Below are positions 5,677 to 40,180 of a stretch of DNA of 42,090 nt, in pieces. The position numbers and the translations under genes were made by a program. Source of the DNA: Candidatus Margulisiibacteriota bacterium (GTDB taxonomy: Bacteria > Margulisbacteria > Riflemargulisbacteria > GWF2-35-9); contig JAQURL010000016.1 in assembly GCA_028715625.1 (NCBI GenBank), forward strand, positions 1 to 42,090. Direction: 5' to 3'. The notes under the pieces are model-generated. The model did no database searches. It saw only the letters and a list, made by a program, of their open reading frames with translations, and was not told the origin of the DNA. The first letter of the stretch is position 1. Every line of letters begins with the position of its first letter.

Positions 5677-6843
5677 TTAAGCCGCTTCCGTTTTATATAG
5701 GTCAACAGGAAGTTTGCCCTTTAGTGATGACGCTATGCTGTTCAGCTGAGTCCATCTTTCTTCCCAGACCTTTCGTACATTTTCCGGTAACTCGGTAAAT
5801 GACGAATAGGTGGTACCATGGTTTTTATTGTATCTGGATAGAGCTTCAGCCTTTTCCTGCTCCTGATTTTCATTGGCTTCCAGATTTACCCTGGTATTAA
5901 GTTTTTTCATGAAGGTGTTCATGGTGTTCTTGAATTCGCTGTCGGAAGCACTCAGTTCATTCATTTTTGTATAAAAAGAATTCCCGGAATTAGCCAGGTC
6001 CGAACCCCATGTCTCCAACACAGCCCTGTCCAACACCCAAACACACTTGTTGTTGGCATTATCTTTTACTGCGTCGGTAAACATACTTTTGATCGTGTCA
6101 TTATCCAGCTTGCTGAAAAGATCTCTGGCTACGCTGGAACCGGCCGTTGGATTGCTGGGATCGTTGGTGCAAAGAGCGATGTTCCTGAACATTAATCTCT
6201 GGTCATCGGCGTTAAGGGTTTTAAAGTAATCGGTAAATTCGCTGTTGTTTACCATTTTGCTCAACGCGTCATTAACTTTGCTCTGGGAGATTTTGCCGTT
6301 CGTGATCATTTTGTCTATCTGTTGGAAGAATTTTGCTGTCTGGTTTTTGTCAAAGGATTTGAGCTCGTCTAAATTTCCCTGTGCAATCGAATCCAGCAGG
6401 CCGTTCAGGAAATTCTGCATATTAGTTTTTAAAGTTGAGGTTTTTTTTATCTTATTCTGTTTTATTGTAATATCATAATCGTCAGATTCTCCGTTAGCTG
6501 TACCGTCCAGATCTATATTGAATGTGGTTATGCCTGTGCCGTCAAAGCCTTTTACATCGCCTATATCGTTTCCATCATGGCTGTAGATATTGTTATTTTT
6601 TATAAAGGCAAGCTCATCAACAGATATGCGATCATCTTTGTTCATATCCAGACAAATCAGATCCACAGTGCCGGTGCTGTCTGTGCCGTATGTCCAGGGC
6701 ATACCGGCACCGCTAAATGAACTGGCATCAAATTGTTCGTCTGCTTCAAATTTACCGTCTTTATCCAGGTCAAAACTTACTTTGCCTGTTTTACTGTCAT
6801 ACTGATAATTTGTGTTCATATCCATTAAATATTTAAAATCCAT
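5677..6843 (-). CDS. Unrecognised protein with N-terminal EF-hand/dockerin-like calcium loops
   Basis: I do not recognise the family. The 388-residue product has no clear signal peptide. Its first ~125 residues carry Asp-rich loops of the EF-hand/dockerin kind: DLDKDGKFEADE at 25-36, DMNKDDRISVDE at 66-77 and a weaker DLDGTANGESDD at about 111-122. The rest (about 135-388) is polar and looks helical, with no motif I can name. The start at 6843 is supported by GGGGGAG just upstream on the minus strand. It is convergent with the exporter gene, with six bases between the stops. Calcium binding is inferred from the loops only. Confidence 0.7.
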   Translation of the reverse strand: MDFKYLMDMNTNYQYDSKTGKVSFDLDKDGKFEADEQFDASSFSGAGMPWTYGTDSTGTVDLICLDMNKDDRISVDELAFIKNNNIYSHDGNDIGDVKGFDGTGITTFNIDLDGTANGESDDYDITIKQNKIKKTSTLKTNMQNFLNGLLDSIAQGNLDELKSFDKNQTAKFFQQIDKMITNGKISQSKVNDALSKMVNNSEFTDYFKTLNADDQRLMFRNIALCTNDPSNPTAGSSVARDLFSKLDNDTIKSMFTDAVKDNANNKCVWVLDRAVLETWGSDLANSGNSFYTKMNELSASDSEFKNTMNTFMKKLNTRVNLEANENQEQEKAEALSRYNKNHGTTYSSFTELPENVRKVWEERWTQLNSIASSLKGKLPVDLYKTEAA

Positions 6844-6935
6844 AATCTCCCCCTGTTAATTATTGTTTTCTAAATATAGATATCGGTAAAAATTTAAAAA
6901 GAATTGTAACGAAAAAAATTGATTTATTTATTTTG

Positions 6936-7880
6936 TCAGATTAAATAACCACCGGTTTTTATGAACTGATTATAGTATTTCTTTACCCCTTCTTCGACAG
7001 TGTTGAAGTTTTCGGTAAAGCCCGCCTTGCGCAGCCTGGTCAGGTCTGCTTCAGTGAAACCCTGATACTTGCCTATTAATTGGTCGGGGAAAGGAATATA
7101 TTTTATTTCAGTTTTAGGATTCATTTTCTGTAAAGCGAGTGCTATATCATTAAAGCTCTGAGCTTTGCCGGTGCCGCAGTTAAAAATTCCGTTTACTTTT
7201 TTTTCAAAGAAAAACAGATTTATTTTTACCGCGTCTTCGATAAATATAAAGTCACGTTTGAAGTTCTGACTTCCTTCAAAAAGTTTCATCGGTTCTTTGT
7301 CTTTAATCTGGTTCATTAAGTGAAAGGCAACAGAGGCCATTCTTCCTTTATGGTTTTCTTGATAGCCATAAACATTAAAATAACGAATCCCGCAAATTTG
7401 TGAGCTTAGGTTCTTTTTGTAATTAAAAATATTGCGTACATAATTATCGAACATGTATTTGGAAAAAGCATAGATATTCAAGGGATATTCGCAGGAAGGG
7501 TCTTCCTTGAAACCTGAGTCACCATTGCCGTACACGGAAGCGCTTGAAGCATAAATAAAGTCTATATTATGCAGTAAGGCAAAATCCAGTAATGCCTTGG
7601 AATATTCATAATTATTTTTCATCATGTACCGGCCGTCGGTTTCCATAGTATCCGAGCAGGCTCCAAGATGAAAAATGGTCCGAATATTTTTATATTGCCC
7701 CAGACTTTTTATGAAATCTTCTTTATCTACAAAGTCTTCAATTGTACAGCCGTTAAGATTAAGATGTTTGCTGGGATTCTTCAGGCTGTCTACAACTATA
7801 ATTTGTTTGATGCCTTTGGCATTAAGGGCTTTGACAATATTGCTCCCTATGAATCCTGCCCCTCCGGTAACGATTATCAT
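6936..7880 (-). CDS. hldD: ADP-L-glycero-D-manno-heptose 6-epimerase
   Basis: HldD converts ADP-D-glycero- to ADP-L-glycero-manno-heptose for the inner core of lipopolysaccharide. The 314 residues match the family. Features are the Rossmann motif TGGAGFIGS (5-13), ASSASVYG (111-118), the catalytic Y137-x3-K141 pair, and the strongly HldD-like RYFNVYG, KGRMASVAFHL and NFKRDFIF segments. AAGGAG lies 8 bases upstream of the ATG, and a promoter is proposed at 7911-7938. The rest of the heptose pathway (gmhA, hldE, gmhB) is not in the window. A related sugar-nucleotide epimerase is possible but less likely given these matches. Confidence 0.92.
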   Translation of the reverse strand: MIIVTGGAGFIGSNIVKALNAKGIKQIIVVDSLKNPSKHLNLNGCTIEDFVDKEDFIKSLGQYKNIRTIFHLGACSDTMETDGRYMMKNNYEYSKALLDFALLHNIDFIYASSASVYGNGDSGFKEDPSCEYPLNIYAFSKYMFDNYVRNIFNYKKNLSSQICGIRYFNVYGYQENHKGRMASVAFHLMNQIKDKEPMKLFEGSQNFKRDFIFIEDAVKINLFFFEKKVNGIFNCGTGKAQSFNDIALALQKMNPKTEIKYIPFPDQLIGKYQGFTEADLTRLRKAGFTENFNTVEEGVKKYYNQFIKTGGYLI

Positions 7881-29214: not shown

Positions 29215-29993
29215 ATTTTATTGGTATAGATTTAGGAAGCCGTAATATCAAACTTGTGACCATCAGTGTCCAGGGGCAGCTTTTATCTAAGAAAATGTTC
29301 GATTCGGTTCATTTTTATAAGCATTATGGAGAATTGAGTAACGGTCAGTTTAAGCTTAATCTGAAAAAACTGGATATCCAGCCCGAAGACAAGATTGTTT
29401 CCACAGGTTACGGCAAGCATCAGGTCAATATTCAGCAAGCCGAAAAAATATCAGAGCAAAAGGCCCATGTTTTCGGCGCTATTCATCAGACGAGCCTTAA
29501 ATCCTTTATTTTACTGGATATAGGTGGTCAGGATACTAAAATTGTACAGGTAGAAAATAAACATATCTTGGATATTTATATGAATGACAAATGCGGAGCT
29601 TGTTCCGGCCGTTATTTGGAAAACATGGCTAACATTCTGCAGATGTCCATAGAAGAGCTGGGACAATATGCTGAGGATTTTGTGCCTGTCAGCAATACCT
29701 GCGCCATATTCGGCGAATCTGAGCTTCTAGGCAAAATTTTTGAAGGTATTGCCATACCCAGGCTGGCAGCGGGAATAAACTATAGTATTTTTTCTAGGAT
29801 AAAATCGAATCTCATTCGATATATAGATTATGGTGTGCCGATTATATTTACCGGAGGTGTAGCTTTAAACAAAGCACTGCAAAATATCATTCATAAAGAA
29901 ACAGGACTGGAAGTGATAATACCTAAAGAGCCACAATTTAATGGAGCTCTGGGTGCGGCAGTGAGCAAAATTAGTTTGCAAACAAAGGCATGA
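29211..29993 (+). CDS. BadF/HgdC-type ATPase (acyl-CoA dehydratase activator-like)
   Basis: The 260-residue protein belongs to the ASKHA family of one-electron activators for 2-hydroxyacyl-CoA dehydratases and benzoyl-CoA reductases. It has the phosphate loop IGIDLGSRNIKLV, LLDIGGQDTKIV, and the cluster cysteines in NDKCGACSGRYLEN (C128, with an extra C131) and SNTCAIFGESEL (C164). These should bridge one [4Fe-4S] in the dimer. FTGGVALN and LGAAVSK close the fold. No dehydratase subunits are adjacent; it overlaps ligA by four bases. Orphan activators of this kind occur widely in anaerobes and their partners are often unknown. Confidence 0.87.
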   Translation: MNFIGIDLGSRNIKLVTISVQGQLLSKKMFDSVHFYKHYGELSNGQFKLNLKKLDIQPEDKIVSTGYGKHQVNIQQAEKISEQKAHVFGAIHQTSLKSFILLDIGGQDTKIVQVENKHILDIYMNDKCGACSGRYLENMANILQMSIEELGQYAEDFVPVSNTCAIFGESELLGKIFEGIAIPRLAAGINYSIFSRIKSNLIRYIDYGVPIIFTGGVALNKALQNIIHKETGLEVIIPKEPQFNGALGAAVSKISLQTKA

Positions 29994-30031: not shown

Positions 30032-30715
30032 ATGATAAAAAAAGCGCTGGTAGTTCTGATTTTCATGACATGTTTTCTAATCGCGGAAGAAGCTAACACG
30101 CCTTGGAACGGCAAGATTGATGATTTTGAAAACGGTAATATTACCGAAAAACCTGCTTGGTGGACATTTGGTAATAGTGAACAGAAAGTTGTTGAATCCG
30201 ATGTGTTTTCCAAAGATCCGTTGTTTAAATATCTTGGTCGTTATGTACTGGAAGTAAAAGGTAACGCCAAAGATTGGTATGTGGGAGGCATGGGATGTTA
30301 CCTGGGAGTTGACGCTACTCCATTTACCCACGTTAAGCTTTATGTTTACGGGACAGGTCCGGACAGCGGTAAATTAACTCTTCAGTTATATGATGACGAT
30401 AACGGCAATTACCAGCTGGAACAGGATGTAAATAAAAATTACGAACCGATTAATGATGACAGGTTTGAATACAGCGCGAATATCAACTGGAAAGGCTGGA
30501 AAGTCTTGTTGATCCCTATATCCTCCTTTAAAGATACCAATAAAACAGTCGGTGACAACACTTGGAACCCGGACCATAAAAACGGCTCGGGCGGTCTGCT
30601 TCATTTTCAGTTTATCTTTTTGGCCAATACCAAAACAGGCAGCGTAAATTTTAGTATTGATAACATAAAATTAATTGATATGAGGGGTAAAAAAGGGGAT
30701 AGCGATGAAAAGTAA
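30032..30715 (+). CDS. Exported carbohydrate-binding-like beta-sandwich protein
   Basis: The 227-residue protein has a signal peptide (about 1-19) and a single beta-sandwich resembling CBM11/CIA30-type domains: KIDDFENGNI at the start, VGGMGCYLGVDATPFTHVKL, then WKGWKVLLIPISSF and a closing SVNFSIDNIKLID. Such folds bind glycans in other proteins; binding is not shown here. The ATG at 30032 follows GGAGG (30021-30025); a start at 29990 would add 14 unlikely residues. It overlaps the next gene by 11 bases and heads the presumed surface-fibre operon. It could be a tip or accessory component, or unrelated cargo. Confidence 0.7.
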   Translation: MIKKALVVLIFMTCFLIAEEANTPWNGKIDDFENGNITEKPAWWTFGNSEQKVVESDVFSKDPLFKYLGRYVLEVKGNAKDWYVGGMGCYLGVDATPFTHVKLYVYGTGPDSGKLTLQLYDDDNGNYQLEQDVNKNYEPINDDRFEYSANINWKGWKVLLIPISSFKDTNKTVGDNTWNPDHKNGSGGLLHFQFIFLANTKTGSVNFSIDNIKLIDMRGKKGDSDEK

Positions 30716-31220
30716 AACTCTATTTTTATTGATACTTTTATCCGGTTTTATGTTTTCTGCTACTCAGCAGACCAGCGTGCAGGTTATGGTAAATGTGAAA
30801 AGTTTTTTTGAGCTGGCTGTAGACCGCAATTTAATTGACTTTAAAACCATGAATCCCGGTGAGATGAAAAGAGATATGCCGGATAACGAGGGTGTTAAGG
30901 TCAATATAAAAAGTAACAGCGGAACTCCCTGGTTTCTTAAAATCAGCGATATGTACGAATTAACCAATGGAAAGGACGTAATCTCCAACGGCAATTTTGT
31001 ATGGTACGGATATCCGTCCAAAACAGCTTTAGGCACCTGGTACGGTAATGGCGAAGACAAGATCAGTCTCAGCCCGGCGCTGGCTTATTCCAGTAATACC
31101 AGCGAGTATAACAATTTGCCCAACGGGACGGATTTGTTTTTCAAATTTGCCTTAAAGATCCCACCCAAGCAGAATAGCGGATTATACAGATCTATTGTTG
31201 CTTTTACTTTAACGGAATAA
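30705..31220 (+). CDS. Exported pilin-like beta-sandwich subunit, paralogue 1
   Basis: The 171-residue protein has a signal peptide ending near FMFSA (residue 19). It shares three marks with the next gene: F-x-x-M/L-NP (IDFKTMNPGE), NSGTPWFLKI, and the C-terminal strand SGLYRSIVAFTLTE. These look like a conserved beta-sandwich whose last strand is under constraint, as in subunits assembled by strand exchange. No fimbrial family is securely recognised. Its position just before a PapD-like chaperone and a beta-barrel supports a structural subunit role. It overlaps the upstream gene by 11 bases. Confidence 0.65.
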   Translation: MKSKTLFLLILLSGFMFSATQQTSVQVMVNVKSFFELAVDRNLIDFKTMNPGEMKRDMPDNEGVKVNIKSNSGTPWFLKISDMYELTNGKDVISNGNFVWYGYPSKTALGTWYGNGEDKISLSPALAYSSNTSEYNNLPNGTDLFFKFALKIPPKQNSGLYRSIVAFTLTE

Positions 31221-31224
31221 TTTT

Positions 31225-31704
31225 ATGAAGAAGATAATTCTCTTCATATTCTGTGCAGGATTACTGCAAGTTGGTTTTGCCAATTTCAGCCTGACCATAA
31301 CCCAAAACCCGGTAGTTAATTTTGGAAGTTTGAATCCTAACGAGGGAGAATGGGTCACCTTTGGAAGCAGTTATCCGAATACTGTTGTGCAATTCGAAGT
31401 AAACAGCGGCGCTCCCTGGAGCCTTGATATTAAAGCTGATCCCTTTAACGGCCCTGCTGCAATGGGCGTGGAAAACATGCAGTGGGACCTGGTCTATGCT
31501 CAGGAAGGTTCTACTTCCATAACATCAGCTATACCTAATGCCAATCAGAAAAAGACTTTTACTACAACCGGAGAAACCGTATACAGTAAGACTCCGGTAA
31601 GTAACGTTACCAATTTGTTCAACTTTATCTGGTTTCTAAGGATACCGGTTAATCAGACAGCCGGGAACTACTATAGTACTATAGTGTTTACCCTAACTCA
31701 GTGA
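31225..31704 (+). CDS. Exported pilin-like beta-sandwich subunit, paralogue 2
   Basis: The 159-residue protein has a signal peptide ending at VGFA (residue 19). It repeats the marks of the preceding protein: VNFGSLNPNEGEW, NSGAPWSLDI, and the C-terminal AGNYYSTIVFTLTQ. The similarity suggests tandem duplication of an exported subunit gene. The mature domain is about 140 residues, close to chaperone-usher pilin size. No cysteine pair is present, unlike classical type 1 pilins. The gene begins four bases after the previous stop. Confidence 0.65.
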   Translation: MKKIILFIFCAGLLQVGFANFSLTITQNPVVNFGSLNPNEGEWVTFGSSYPNTVVQFEVNSGAPWSLDIKADPFNGPAAMGVENMQWDLVYAQEGSTSITSAIPNANQKKTFTTTGETVYSKTPVSNVTNLFNFIWFLRIPVNQTAGNYYSTIVFTLTQ

Positions 31705-31714
31705 GGTGTAAAAA

Positions 31715-32491
31715 ATGAAACGAATTATAATACTTTTAAGTCTACTTTGCGGTTTCAATGTTTTTGCTTTGCAGATCAGTCTGGACCCGCCTCATTATAA
31801 TGTCCTTATGAAACAAGGCTCTGCCGTGCGCAAAACACTGACATTAACTAATCAGGGCAAGGAAAACCTGAACGTTAAAGTTTATCTGAACGACTGGTAT
31901 ATGCAGGATGGCAAAAAAGTATTTATTCAGTCCGGAATGACGGCTTATTCTTTAAAAAATTCCTGTCTGATTTTCCCTTCATCCTTTTCCTTGAAGGCTA
32001 AAGAAAGCAGAACTGTAATCCTGACCCTTACCTCTGCTGCTAATGAAACCGGCGGTCAGTACGGTGTAATTTTCTTCGAAGCCTATCCGCTTGTTAGTAT
32101 AAAAAATTCCGGTGTATCGTTTGGTGGTCGCATCGGCAGCATGATCTATAAAGAGATCGATGGCCAGGTTTCCAAAGTTTATAATTTAAAAAATCTTAAA
32201 ACGAGTCTTGTTGGCAACAAACTTTATTATGAATATGCTCTGACCAATGAAGGTAACGTGTTATTGCAACCCAAATGTACCATCGTACTTATGGATAATA
32301 AAACAAATGAAGTATATTTAAAGGAAGACCTTAAAGACGTTGTTATTGCTTTGCCCAAGGATACTTTCACCAAAAAGGGCTTTACAGTTTTAAATAAAGT
32401 ACCTGAAAAGAAAGATAATTTATCTTTGTTGCTTACTCTGGATTTCGGTGACGATAATATTATTATAAAAGAAATCAAAGTGAATGAATAA
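31715..32491 (+). CDS. PapD-like periplasmic chaperone
   Basis: This 258-residue exported protein has the two-domain layout of pilus chaperones. A signal peptide (about 1-18) is followed by an Ig-like domain starting QISLDPPHYNVLMKQGSAVR, then KTLTLTNQGKENLNVKVYL, and ending GGQYGVIFFEAYP at the place of the G1 strand. The second Ig-like domain contains YEYALTNEGNVLLQPKCTIV. Chaperones of this type hold pilin subunits by donating a strand until the outer-membrane usher takes them. Two subunit-like genes precede it and a large barrel protein follows directly, so role and order agree. GAGGTG precedes the ATG. Confidence 0.75.
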   Translation: MKRIIILLSLLCGFNVFALQISLDPPHYNVLMKQGSAVRKTLTLTNQGKENLNVKVYLNDWYMQDGKKVFIQSGMTAYSLKNSCLIFPSSFSLKAKESRTVILTLTSAANETGGQYGVIFFEAYPLVSIKNSGVSFGGRIGSMIYKEIDGQVSKVYNLKNLKTSLVGNKLYYEYALTNEGNVLLQPKCTIVLMDNKTNEVYLKEDLKDVVIALPKDTFTKKGFTVLNKVPEKKDNLSLLLTLDFGDDNIIIKEIKVNE

Positions 32492-35056
32492 ATGTTAAAA
32501 AAATTAGTAATATTATCCCTTGTTTTTACTTTTTCTCTGGCCGGGCTCATTGAGCTTACCTATGATGAAGAAAAACAGGTGGTCATTAACGGAATTACGG
32601 GCTTTATAATTATCGATAATAAGGATGTTATTCAGGCTAATACCAAAACCAATCTTTTACTTTTAAAAGGCTTAAAGCCCGGTGAAGCTTCCATTATAGT
32701 GCTTACAGATAAAAACAAGACAGCTTACAAAATCAAAGTCAAGCCGCAGGAGCTTGTGGCTACGGCCAAATCGGAAGTAGATTACAGCGGCAAACGTTTT
32801 ATTAGCAATATCAGCATGGGATACGGTGCAGGCTCATCAAAATCAGATTATTCTCAGAACGTTTGGGACTACGGATATACTTATTATAAATTTAATACTC
32901 AGGGTGAAACACCCTGGGGTTTTCTGACAAATTATACATATTTCAAAAATACTGCTGCAGCCCAGGGACTGAACAGCTTTACTACCTCACTGAAAAACAG
33001 TTACGGTTTATTTACCATAGGAGATCAGTTTTATGAAGAGATATCTTCTATTGTTTTTCCATCGCAACCCTTGCAGGGCATTAGCTATCAGGGTGCTTAC
33101 AGCAACCTGGATATACTTTTATTTTATGGCCGTAACAATTTCGGGAATTGGGGCAGTACCGCCGAACGTGAAGAGCGTGATACCCAGACATTGTCTTTTT
33201 CCAGGTTGGGTTACAGACTTAACCGAGATTCCAGTGTGGGGTTAAATCTCAGCAATTTCAGCAGCAGTTTGTTTTATAAAACTTTTATTTATCTTTTTGA
33301 TGTTAACGCGGAGGTGGGTCAGGATAAAAATTCCAGAATGGCAAGAGATTTTACTCTGGCCTATAATAATCATCTTGATTTGAATGCCAAACTGAACTAT
33401 AAAGATTTCGCTGAAGGCTTTGAACTGCCCTTCGGTATGGTGGACTACAGAGGGTTCAGAGGTTTCAATTATAATCTTAATTATTTTATTAATAACCTGA
33501 CAGATTTAAGTTATTACGGTGAAAATTATAGAAGGTCTATTAATGCTCAGGACTTGGGAACAAATAAAAACAATTTGGTGTTCAACTGGAGACTGGAAAA
33601 GTCCGATAACAGACTACCAGACATCACAGTATATTACTGGGACCAGCGCGATGAGTCGGTTACCAACTCTTATTCTGTGGTAACAGCTATTTCTCCGACT
33701 GCCTCAGTGACATCCAATTTTATTAATAATTATCAGTATGCCCAGCAGGGTATGTATTATCAGGCCAGGAAAAAAATATGGTTACTTGATTTGTGGGCCA
33801 AATATTCACCGATCCATTATGAAAACGTGGGAAATCCGGCGGCCGGTTATGATCAGAAGAATTATACTTATGGATTCATAGTCCCGGTGATCAAAGGTCT
33901 TTTATCGTATCAGGGTGAATATACTCTGGAAGATAATCAGCTGACTACTTCCAGTTACCAGCAAGATATTTACAGGTCGTTTATTATGTTGACACCTATA
34001 CCGGTTTACAAAACAGCACTATTTTTTAATGCTTTTTACCAATATGATACGCGAAAAAACAGATCTACCGATGAAGTATTTTCTAAACATTTTGCCAAAC
34101 TGGAACTTATTTACTATCCGAATCCTGATGGTAATTTAACCTTTGGTTTTTACAGGACAATCGACGATGCTCCGGTTGCGTTTCAAGTATCCAGAGTTCT
34201 GGATGAAATTCGTCTGGAATATTCCCAGAATTTCAATTATCTGGCACAGTTCGGTAAGGGTAGAGCTGTATTGACCGGTATGGTTTACTTGGACGATAAT
34301 GCAAACGGCCAACTGGACGAAGCGGAAAAACCTGTTCCGAATATCAGGGTGAAAATTTCCGATGGTCAGGTATCGACTACCAATCAATATGGTGTGTATA
34401 AATTTGACAACGTATATGAGGGCTCCACTACCATTGAGTTGGAAGAAGGAACCCAGAAACTTTCTGCCACAGAAGATTATCCCAAATTTGTACAGGTCCA
34501 GCCCGGTCAGAGAATGGTTGTAAATTTTGGCGTACTTCTGGCCAACAGGATTTATGGCAATGTTTTCAGGGATGACAATCAGAACGGTACTAAAGAAGAA
34601 TTTGAAAAAGGTTTTTCTGGAGTTCGTATAATAATTGGGGAAACTGTTATAAAAACCGACGAAGACGGATATTATGAATATGTGACTGAAGGTATCGGTC
34701 AGGAATTTCCAGTAGAACTGGATTTATCATCTGTTCCTGACGGATATAAACTTAGTGGAGAACGTAAAACTACTGTAATCGGCAACGGTAAAGTTAATTT
34801 TGTCCTGGAAAAAGTAAACAAAAGTACCTATAAAGATGATTACGTGGAAATAACCGGGATAAAAAAGTTGAACAAGAAGGAATTAATGGTATCCGGAAAG
34901 ATTTTAAAACCGGTACAATACGCGATTATTAATGACCGGAAATTCAATATAGAATCAGGCGAGTTTCAGGTCAAAGTACCTGTTTCCGGGAATAAAGTTA
35001 AGGTAAAATTGTATACCCGAGATCGAAACTATTGGATAAAGTTTTTTAGTTATTGA
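32492..35056 (+). CDS. Outer-membrane beta-barrel, usher-like, with C-terminal SdrD-like domains
   Basis: The 854-residue protein has a signal peptide (about 1-17). A small N-terminal domain (about 20-88) resembles the pilus-assembly N-terminal domain of secretins (GFIIIDNKDVIQANTKTNLL, then LKGLKPGEASIIVLTD). A long Tyr/Phe/Asn-rich region (about 95-590) fits a transmembrane beta-barrel. Two SdrD/CNA-B-like domains follow: GMVYLDDNANGQLDEAEKPV (about 596) and GNVFRDDNQNGTKEEFEKGF (about 688), each with an Asp-rich calcium loop. A last small beta domain ends at 854. The plan N-domain, barrel, two C-terminal beta-sandwiches parallels FimD/PapC ushers, though I see no direct sequence match. It starts right after the chaperone stop. 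Confidence 0.7.
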   Translation: MLKKLVILSLVFTFSLAGLIELTYDEEKQVVINGITGFIIIDNKDVIQANTKTNLLLLKGLKPGEASIIVLTDKNKTAYKIKVKPQELVATAKSEVDYSGKRFISNISMGYGAGSSKSDYSQNVWDYGYTYYKFNTQGETPWGFLTNYTYFKNTAAAQGLNSFTTSLKNSYGLFTIGDQFYEEISSIVFPSQPLQGISYQGAYSNLDILLFYGRNNFGNWGSTAEREERDTQTLSFSRLGYRLNRDSSVGLNLSNFSSSLFYKTFIYLFDVNAEVGQDKNSRMARDFTLAYNNHLDLNAKLNYKDFAEGFELPFGMVDYRGFRGFNYNLNYFINNLTDLSYYGENYRRSINAQDLGTNKNNLVFNWRLEKSDNRLPDITVYYWDQRDESVTNSYSVVTAISPTASVTSNFINNYQYAQQGMYYQARKKIWLLDLWAKYSPIHYENVGNPAAGYDQKNYTYGFIVPVIKGLLSYQGEYTLEDNQLTTSSYQQDIYRSFIMLTPIPVYKTALFFNAFYQYDTRKNRSTDEVFSKHFAKLELIYYPNPDGNLTFGFYRTIDDAPVAFQVSRVLDEIRLEYSQNFNYLAQFGKGRAVLTGMVYLDDNANGQLDEAEKPVPNIRVKISDGQVSTTNQYGVYKFDNVYEGSTTIELEEGTQKLSATEDYPKFVQVQPGQRMVVNFGVLLANRIYGNVFRDDNQNGTKEEFEKGFSGVRIIIGETVIKTDEDGYYEYVTEGIGQEFPVELDLSSVPDGYKLSGERKTTVIGNGKVNFVLEKVNKSTYKDDYVEITGIKKLNKKELMVSGKILKPVQYAIINDRKFNIESGEFQVKVPVSGNKVKVKLYTRDRNYWIKFFSY

Positions 35057-38144: not shown

Positions 38145-39131
38145 ATGTCATCAACCGAATTTCAAACCAAAAAGGATACTATACAGGCAGATCCTAAGAC
38201 AATAATGGACATTATTATAATCGGAGGAGGGCCTGCAGGTATTAGTGCCGCGCTAATGGCTGAAAGTCGAGGCTTGAATGTTCTTCTAATTGAAGAAGCG
38301 GTATTATGCAGCAATTTATTCAATGTCCCCTATATTGAGGATCTCCCTTATTTCGACGAGGAAAAACTGGTCGGACATAAGCTTTCCGACCTTCTCATTG
38401 CCAAAGTTAACGAACATAAATTGCATGTAGTCTATGAAAAGGTAACGGATTTGGATGTGTTGGAAAATAACAGAAAAAAGATAATCACCGATAAACATGT
38501 TTATTACTCAAAAGCAGTTATCATCGCCTGCGGTTTCAAAAATAAGAAAATACCGATAAAGGATGATCAGAAATTCTATGGTAACGGTTTGTCTTATTGT
38601 GCTCCCTGTGATTATATGTACTATCTGAATAGCCCTGTTCTTCTGGCAGGGAGCTCGGAATATGCTGCCAAGATGGCTTTATATTTGACGTCTTTTGTCA
38701 GCCAGCTTTATTTTGTAGTAAATAATAATAAATTTACGGCAACTGAGTTCATCAAAAAAGAAATCTATAAAAATAAAAAAATCAGGATTTTTTTTCAACA
38801 TGAGCTATTATCCCTGGATGGTAAGAGTAAATTGGAAGCCGTTCGCATCAAATCCCTGGGAAATAATAGAGAAGTATCTTTAAATGTAGCCGCGGCTTTT
38901 ATTTATATGGACATAGAGGGTAACATCGAGTTTTTATCGAACAAAAAAAACGGGATAAACCTTTCTGATGATCAATTTATCATTACTGACAATCTGACCG
39001 AAACTTCGGTCGCAGGCATATATGCCATAGGTACTGTCCGGCACGGAACTATGAAGCGGATAACCGCTGCCACGACTGACGCTCTTACTGCCGTAAATGA
39101 AATCCAACATTACCTATATTTTTTGAAATGA
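38145..39131 (+). CDS. Thioredoxin reductase-like flavoprotein with atypical cofactor motifs
   Basis: The 328-residue protein has an FAD motif IIIGGGPAGISAALMAE (about 24-40) and a redox-active C152-A-P-C155, at the place of CATC in thioredoxin reductase. Two usual features are altered. The NADPH motif GxGxxA is replaced by LLAGSSEYAAK (166-176). The C-terminal FAD motif GD is GT in GIYAIGTVRHGTMKRIT. It may use another electron donor such as ferredoxin, as in some anaerobic thioredoxin reductases. The first ~20 residues are extra; the ATG at 38205 would give a conventional start. It follows lptA by one base. Confidence 0.75.
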   Translation: MSSTEFQTKKDTIQADPKTIMDIIIIGGGPAGISAALMAESRGLNVLLIEEAVLCSNLFNVPYIEDLPYFDEEKLVGHKLSDLLIAKVNEHKLHVVYEKVTDLDVLENNRKKIITDKHVYYSKAVIIACGFKNKKIPIKDDQKFYGNGLSYCAPCDYMYYLNSPVLLAGSSEYAAKMALYLTSFVSQLYFVVNNNKFTATEFIKKEIYKNKKIRIFFQHELLSLDGKSKLEAVRIKSLGNNREVSLNVAAAFIYMDIEGNIEFLSNKKNGINLSDDQFIITDNLTETSVAGIYAIGTVRHGTMKRITAATTDALTAVNEIQHYLYFLK

Positions 39132-40180
39132 ATATCGCGCTGGTAGGCTATTTCGGACATGACAATCTTGGCGACGAAGCCATTTTACAAAGTGTTTTGC
39201 AGCAATTAAAAAAATATCATGTTCCTCTGAGGATCATTGTATTTACCCAGACTCCGCAGGAAACGTCCAGGCGTTATAAAGTTATTGCCTTTCGAAGAAA
39301 ATCATGGCCTGATCTATTAGCCGGTATCACCATGACTGATGTGGTTGTTTTTGCAGGAGGCTCACTTTTACAGGACAAAACAAGTTTTAAAAGCCTGCTC
39401 TATTATTTGTCGATTATTTTTTTGGCGAGAATTTTCAAGAAAAAAATCATTCTTTACGCACAGGGTATAGAAGATTTTCGTTATCCGCTAAGTAAATGGC
39501 TGGTAAAAACGTTTTTAGGCTATACACATTTCATCAGCGTCAGAGATGAAGAAAGTTATAAATATCTTAAAGATGTACTGAAAATAAAAAAACCGGTCCA
39601 TTATACTGTGGATTCCGCTCTGATGCTTTGCCCTTTACAAACGGATAACCGTTATCTGGGCTATATCGGATTGAATTTTATCGATATAGAAAATTTCCCG
39701 TACAAGAATGTGTCTGACACCTTGGTTAAATTTTCCCGGGAACATAATAAAAAATATGTGTATATTCCTTTTCATGAGGAAGATTTGAAAATAGCCGGCA
39801 CCTTGCAGCAGCTCATACCCAGTCAGTATTTTGAAGTTTTGCAACCGCAGGAGAATATATCCATGCTGATAGGGATTATGCAGCAGCTGGACATGGTAAT
39901 CGGCACCAGATTACATAGCTTGATCCTTAGCGCGGCAGCTTATACTCCATTCATGGGCATACATTATCATGATAAAGTGGAAAGTTTTGCCAAAGAAGTT
40001 AAGCAAAAATATATGTTGTTTGATAATTTACAAAACGGTCATTTCTATAGTAATCTGGTAGATGTTTTTTCTCAAAAGGAAAGTTATAAAAATCAGCTGA
40101 AGTTTTTGGTGGAAGACCTGAAAACAAAATCAAAAAACAACCTGATTAATAATATCATAATTAAATATGACAAAACGTGA
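39128..40180 (+). CDS. csaB: Polysaccharide pyruvyl transferase CsaB
   Basis: CsaB adds pyruvate ketals to a cell-wall polysaccharide, which lets SLH-domain S-layer proteins bind. The 350 residues match: ALVGYFGHDNLGDEAILQSV at the start, VVVFAGGSLLQDKTS, KIILYAQGIEDFRYPLSKWL, and MVIGTRLHSLILSAAAYTPF. It overlaps the upstream flavoprotein gene by four bases and the downstream tagA by 14. csaB followed by tagA is a common arrangement. No SLH-domain protein is visible in the window. Confidence 0.9.
   Translation: MNIALVGYFGHDNLGDEAILQSVLQQLKKYHVPLRIIVFTQTPQETSRRYKVIAFRRKSWPDLLAGITMTDVVVFAGGSLLQDKTSFKSLLYYLSIIFLARIFKKKIILYAQGIEDFRYPLSKWLVKTFLGYTHFISVRDEESYKYLKDVLKIKKPVHYTVDSALMLCPLQTDNRYLGYIGLNFIDIENFPYKNVSDTLVKFSREHNKKYVYIPFHEEDLKIAGTLQQLIPSQYFEVLQPQENISMLIGIMQQLDMVIGTRLHSLILSAAAYTPFMGIHYHDKVESFAKEVKQKYMLFDNLQNGHFYSNLVDVFSQKESYKNQLKFLVEDLKTKSKNNLINNIIIKYDKT

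Follow-up and report, generated by a model that had tools for sequence, protein, structure and literature searches.

Few bacterial adhesion machines have been studied as thoroughly as chaperone-usher pili, and almost everything known about these pili comes from Proteobacteria. The hallmark of the usher is a 24-strand barrel with a plug domain. Here we describe a cassette of five genes, P1 to P5, in the uncultured phylum Margulisbacteria and compare it with the classical Fim/Pap pathway, the archaic pathway (Csu; spore coat U type), the alternative (alpha) pathway of E. coli EcpA-E and CFA/I, and the WxL/WxLIP (DUF916-DUF3324) clusters of Gram-positive bacteria. The DNA analysed (the window) is 42,090 nucleotides long and is the entire contig JAQURL010000016.1 (G000:C16) from a Candidatus Margulisiibacteriota genome that is 97% complete. 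We consider it probable that the cassette works like a chaperone-usher system, with donor-strand assembly of a fibre through a divergent usher; the chaperone-usher interpretation proposed in an earlier reading of the bare sequence is supported.

In the alternative pathway, Ala111, Ala115 and Ile117 in the G1 strand of mature EcpB are needed to hold the pilin, and Arg89 is the domain-1 anchor for the carboxylate at the subunit C-terminus (PMC4654587). The commonest WxL cluster comprises one WxLIP and two WxL, and an AlphaFold2 (AF2) prediction has a hairpin strand of WxLIP completing the WxL sandwich, in a paper that uses neither 'chaperone' nor 'usher' (PMC10599100). Among the open-access papers searched, none describes an usher system in Margulisbacteria or links WxL to donor-strand pili, an absence that is in itself no proof of novelty.

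The five-gene cassette and its conservation

The cassette consists of the following genes, arranged head to tail:

30032–30715, plus strand: P1, exported carbohydrate-binding-module (CBM)-like beta-sandwich; its open reading frame (ORF) opens at 29990
30705–31220, plus strand: P2, pilin-like subunit with an N-terminal extension; predicted polymerising subunit
31225–31704, plus strand: P3, pilin-like subunit without the extension; predicted tip or initiating subunit
31715–32491, plus strand: P4, two-domain immunoglobulin (Ig)-like periplasmic chaperone
32492–35056, plus strand: P5, outer-membrane barrel protein of 854 amino acids; predicted usher-like exit pore

The junctions are, in order, an 11-base overlap and gaps of 4, 10 and 0 bases, and each protein has a signal-peptide-like segment at its N-terminus. 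The cassette is real: the ORFs were found at the place and on the strand where the sequence-only reading had put five adjacent genes for exported proteins, with overlaps or gaps below 15 bases. Its start for the first gene, 30032, is likely because the Met-Lys-Lys of relatives aligns there, although the ORF itself opens upstream. The CBM-like character assigned to the first product holds for the homologues of P1, of which 10 of 14 match CBM_11 (best E-value 6.4e-5) and 8 of 14 match SGBP_B_XBD (best 1.5e-7); P1 alone gave no match in a Pfam scan. The two pilin-like proteins are paralogous as described, with a profile-profile E-value of 7e-24 between P2 and P3. Neither Pfam nor NCBIfam assigns any protein of the cassette to an usher or pilin family, in agreement with the classical signatures reported as lacking.

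A search with the barrel recovered the cassette in the four other genomes of the family, at order level in G005 and at class level in G007, and the chaperone profile has matches in 20 of the 74 genomes of the phylum; a chaperone profile built on the closer sequences and run against genome contigs gave matches in Margulisbacteria only. Judged as far as each contig extends, seven families (f1, f2, f3, f4, f15, f23 and f29) share one gene order, with the CBM followed by two or three pilins, the chaperone and the barrel. The CBM gene leads in all 16 loci whose contig extends that far, the barrel gene directly follows that of the chaperone in all 17 readable loci. Wherever a relative's contig is long enough the genes lie together, so that unlinked genes, an outcome that would have told against the reading, were not found. 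The flanks vary by group, with LigA, a BadF-type ATPase and UDP-glucose dehydrogenase in f1 and f2, an AMIN/amidase-type protein in f4, and a transporter-permease-like gene in f15 and f29. Hence the order subunits, chaperone, barrel, which had been likened to that of chaperone-usher operons, is kept in seven families amid differing neighbours, and such conservation makes a chance arrangement implausible. An apparent absence from G006 was rejected, as the assembly breaks there and the contig ends inside P3.

Chaperone and subunits

Two segments are candidate donor strands:

32114–32146, plus strand: G1 strand of P4, V134-SFGGRIGSM-I144, candidate donor strand for the subunits
30762–30806, plus strand: N-terminal extension of P2, TQQTSVQVMVNVKSF (residues 20-34), candidate donor strand

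P4 matches no family model above cut-off. Profiles were weighed by hhalign with signal peptides removed and with reversed-sequence and unrelated-protein controls: the P4 profile matches its Deinococcus homologues at E 1.5e-30, Gram-positive WxLIP at 1.2e-8 across both domains, EcpB/EcpE at 6.1e-7 and a Sphingobium archaic-type chaperone at 4.2e-6, pairwise values that are not database-calibrated and count only by contrast with the controls, at 0.04 or weaker. The FimC type gave no match (0.075), and a relation to FimC scored at 0.006 in untrimmed sequences was rejected, since it vanished once signal peptides were trimmed. The earlier label was PapD-like chaperone; P4 is a two-domain chaperone related to EcpB/EcpE and the archaic type, and matches neither FimC-type proteins nor PF00345. 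Compared directly, WxLIP and EcpB barely match (0.03), and by its profile P4 links these two families that scarcely match one another. The PDB sequences that score best with the profile of 15 homologues are EfmWxLIP1 (E 0.015) and EcpB (5dfk; E 0.035), and PF06030 (WxLIP_PGBD) is matched by 9 of the 15 (best 2.5e-5) and stays below cut-off in P4 itself.

The likeness to EcpB extends to the candidate donor strand. VSFGGRIGSMI of P4 aligns onto EcpB AVATASARIGTIL, which sets V134, F136, G138 and I140 against Ala111, Ala113, Ala115 and Ile117 (the register-shifted G1 donor residues, positions P0-P3, being I140, G138, F136 and V134). Position 139 is basic in 15 of 15 homologues, and a T-N-x-G-N motif in domain 2 is common to P4 and EcpB.

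The sequence-only reading had allowed for an independent or very distant branch. Distant it is, but independence does not stand, at least for the chaperone, given its relation to EcpB and the archaic type, and also to Gram-positive WxLIP, on which that reading was silent. That donor-strand assembly was invented here anew, sharing no descent with chaperone-usher pili, is accordingly very improbable: the family databases assign no usher or pilin and the modules do differ (a PF13629-like N-domain and SdrD_B C-domains in the barrel), but the chaperone profile and the common G1 motif speak for descent, as does a protein in another genome of the phylum (L085) that matches both PapD_N and the P4 model (E 2e-5). 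For the barrel, convergence could still hold.

The AF2 model of P2, built from 23 sequences, has a predicted local distance difference test score (pLDDT) of 91. It contains eight strands, and residues 20-34 run extended outside all of them; as modelled, P2 is an incomplete Ig-like subunit with an N-terminal extension. The best PDB fold in Foldseek is CfaB (E 1.4e-3, probability 1.00), followed by an archaeal bundling pilin and CsuA/B (TMt 0.52-0.56) and then by FimA, FimF, FimG, PapE and SafA. Valines alternate in the extension (V25/V27/V29/V31; V-x-V-x-V-x-V), and an alternating hydrophobic segment precedes strand A in the subunits away from the chaperone across all cassettes. The subunit encoded beside the chaperone is always of the P3 type and lacks the extension in every cassette, the mature P3 starting directly at strand A. 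This difference suggests, from sequence, that P2 is a polymerising subunit and P3 a tip or initiating subunit. Together, the EcpB-like G1 motif, the incomplete pilin fold with its extension and the homology to WxLIP indirectly favour strand donation from P4 to P2 and P3.

Several of these features would also suit a diderm version of the WxL/WxLIP clusters, in which P4 would complement P2 and P3 permanently, the resulting surface- or wall-associated complex would not polymerise, and P5 would serve as outer-membrane anchor or exporter and not as a fibre usher. The P4 profile matches that of WxLIP along both domains (PGBD and HBD), the gene set of one donor protein and two subunits is that of the commonest WxL cluster, and strand insertion is likewise predicted for WxL (PMC10599100). 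Furthermore, 18 of 20 P2-type subunits keep a central W-x-[LF] motif, and in most a conserved Tyr is followed by a terminal T-[LM]-T-E. These two elements are colinear with the pair of W-x-L motifs in WxL domains, of which P2 has only the first as W-x-L. We nevertheless regard this account as unlikely. P4 ends after domain 2 with no hydrophobic segment and, as would suit a soluble chaperone, has no counterpart to the transmembrane helix at the C-terminus of WxLIP; P2 bears a polymerisation-type extension; an outer-membrane barrel gene always follows; and the WxL domain PF13731 is unmatched in the 74 genomes, the pilin profile matching WxL only weakly (E 1.2e-3 after trimming). An untrimmed pilin-WxL score of 5e-5 was set aside as partly signal peptide, and IL-18 matches of the pilin profile (E 0.05) and unrelated Pfam matches at E > 0.01 were judged to be chance.

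Relatives of the cassette occur outside the phylum. Searched by tblastn against plasmids, P4 and P2 gave no match, while homologous chaperones found Deinococcus operons annotated as hypothetical (L094, L097, L102 and L103) and also touched, at E 0.04-0.07, a fimbrial chaperone of Sphingobium and a DUF916 protein of Enterococcus. In the Deinococcus operons the chaperone gene stands second, after one for an unknown protein, and is followed by genes for a pilin-like and then a large barrel-type protein. Besides the chaperone (1.5e-30), the pilin-like protein matches P3 (2.7e-5), and the barrel, which has an SdrD/CarboxypepD domain (the protein is named CarboxypepD in one record), matches at 1.2e-17 over 218 columns. 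The operons differ in having a single pilin-like gene, between chaperone and barrel; a CBM gene was not found in them, and the first product, of about 290 amino acids, is not recognisably a pilin and has no recognisable relatives among the sequences compared.

The barrel and the proposed assembly pathway

P5 carries beta-domains on either side of its barrel region:

32549–32746, plus strand: N-terminal secretin-type domain of P5 (PF13629-like, residues 20-85; E 0.13)
34259–34786, plus strand: two SdrD_B-like domains of P5 (about residues 590-765; Pfam SdrD_B 5.6e-13 in two stretches, PDB SdrD 5.8e-11)
34814–35053, plus strand: third C-terminal beta-domain of P5 (about residues 775-854; model strands 785-853)

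The secretin-type N-domain claimed in the sequence-only reading is sub-threshold in P5 itself, whereas homologous f4 barrels exceed the cut-off (1.3e-9, 4.7e-5 and 2.3e-6). The two SdrD-like sandwiches were rightly placed, although they do not end the protein: the third beta-domain follows, and is missing in the G003, G007 and G032 homologues. The f4 barrels (L047, L048, L051, L057, L106-L108) have about 580 residues, end in a C-terminal outer-membrane signal, LVYRF or LVYKF, and have no SdrD domains; since they stop at the barrel itself, the C-terminal domains are dispensable in some lineages. In f4 a further exported protein is encoded after the barrel, with AMIN and Amidase_3 domains in the copy of L047.

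The AF2 model of P5 has 22 strands of at least six residues within residues 117-579 and space for two more; too few strands for a subunit pore, an outcome that would have told against an usher, is not what this weak model shows. In Foldseek, FimD and PapC chains come out on top (3e-11 to 1e-6) and largely rank over porins, a preference that the mere combination of a barrel with Ig-like domains may favour.

Several observations weigh against the chaperone-usher interpretation. The P5 model has a pLDDT of 62 and a predicted template-modelling score of 0.37 and superposes poorly on ushers (template-modelling score about 0.2); no plug domain of usher type, 80-90 residues long, is evident in it; and profile comparison detects no sequence homology between the barrel region and ushers, EcpC included. 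The EcpB anchor Arg89 is not conserved, the aligned residue of P4 being Gly117 in an alignment that may be displaced by a few positions. The Foldseek E-values of P2 are in themselves modest (1.4e-3), as glycosidase and cohesin sandwiches are matched too. The usher role is the weakest link, because of the poor superposition, the weak model and the lack of usher sequence homology.

P5 might instead be a porin-like or polysaccharide-export channel that is co-transcribed by chance with surface beta-sandwich proteins and has no usher function. Polysaccharide genes do lie nearby, with UDP-glucose dehydrogenase adjoining and CsaB- and WecG/TagA-like genes further on, and porins also match the barrel model; but in other families it is the chaperone and pilins that are kept beside the barrel and not the polysaccharide genes, and usher chains outrank porins in the fold search. 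We hold this channel to be quite improbable.

The cassette resembles several described systems in part. It shares with classical Fim/Pap the layout of N-domain, barrel and C-domains, but the FimC-type chaperone match, the usher and pilin family matches and a clear plug are all wanting; P5 does not match the usher family PF00577, and filing the cassette as a classical (PF00577/PF00345) system was rejected, the defining tests having failed. With the archaic pathway it has in common the Sphingobium chaperone match and CsuA/B among the top folds of P2, but neither a PF00577 or PF00345 match, nor one to the SCPU pilin family, nor usher sequence homology. With the alternative pathway it shares the chaperone profile, the G1 donor motif and the gene set of subunit, chaperone and outer-membrane barrel, and CfaB of CFA/I is the top fold match of P2; the differences are a barrel with no detectable sequence homology to EcpC, the N- and C-domains of P5, the CBM gene placed in front, the lack of a conserved Arg89, and P2, which does not match EcpA by profile. 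On profile evidence the chaperone is related to those of non-classical chaperone-usher systems and to WxLIP, and the barrel is of uncertain ancestry.

Under donor-strand assembly, P1-P5 would reach the periplasm by their signal peptides. P2 and P3 would be Ig-like domains missing the last strand, and the G1 strand of P4 (V134/F136/G138/I140) would keep both soluble and unpolymerised until the N- and/or C-terminal beta-domains of P5 take up the chaperone-subunit complexes. P3, with no extension to donate, would begin the fibre as tip or initiator; the V-x-V-x-V-x-V extension of each P2 would then enter the groove of the previous subunit, displacing P4, and a thin surface fibre would exit through the P5 pore. 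P1, a sandwich of carbohydrate-binding type, would be an associated glycan-binding component.

The cassette possibly bridges chaperone-usher pili and WxL/WxLIP clusters. We suggest, tentatively and with more doubt than conviction, that both share one ancestral strand-donation pair, an incomplete Ig subunit and a two-domain donor chaperone, of which the cassette of Margulisbacteria and Deinococcus would be a surviving intermediate with its own barrel as exit pore. If the fibre-assembly reading is true, the known range of donor-strand systems becomes wider, since the cassette is then a functioning branch from an uncultured phylum that employs another usher and escapes PF00577, PF00345 and NCBIfam. 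The profile match between P4 and WxLIP would offer a testable explanation for the retention of WxL proteins by Gram-positive cells; it may also point to a common origin of the two systems, which PMC10599100 leaves unconnected. Family models made from the cassette sequences would annotate the Deinococcus operons now labelled hypothetical.

Neighbouring genes and variant loci

Beyond P5 lie genes for UDP-glucose dehydrogenase and a TPR protein, then LptC- and LptA-like genes, which indicate that the host cell is a lipopolysaccharide-type diderm. A CsaB-type polysaccharide pyruvyl transferase is encoded further downstream in this diderm context (window 39128-40180), and may point to a pyruvylated wall polymer and SLH-type attachment of the outer membrane.

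Canonical usher or PapD families (PF00577/PF00345) occur in just three genomes of the phylum, none of which has the cassette; the canonical-type usher or PapD_N proteins are those of L084 (G060), L085 (G025) and L086-L087 (G064).

More distant loci in G043 and G027 use other subunits. L056 (G043:C67) is an operon in which two DUF4402 pilin-like proteins are encoded together with a weak chaperone homologue and an SdrD_B protein of 1001 residues; the C-terminus of the last matches an EFR1-type ferredoxin model, perhaps through a fused or misassembled ORF. L052 (G027:C38) is an enlarged form of the system: its three chaperone homologues, two of them of about 490-500 residues, adjoin a protein of 1332 residues in which FlgD_ig, DUF11 and SdrD_B domains occur together. 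Three genomes with the cassette encode a further chaperone homologue of greater divergence (E 1e-8 to 1e-11), beside small exported proteins:

5725–7309 of G000:C97: L053, divergent second chaperone locus
G001:C160: L055, divergent second chaperone locus, where a 487-residue protein with a CBM_11-like domain precedes the chaperone
G002:C23: L054, divergent second chaperone locus

Two of these three contigs end right after the chaperone, so that any barrel there would lie beyond their reach. In many unrelated assemblies (L045, L046, L049, L050, L053, L055, L106 and L111) the contig breaks off within the cassette or at its border, which may reflect strain-level variation or repeats in these genes.

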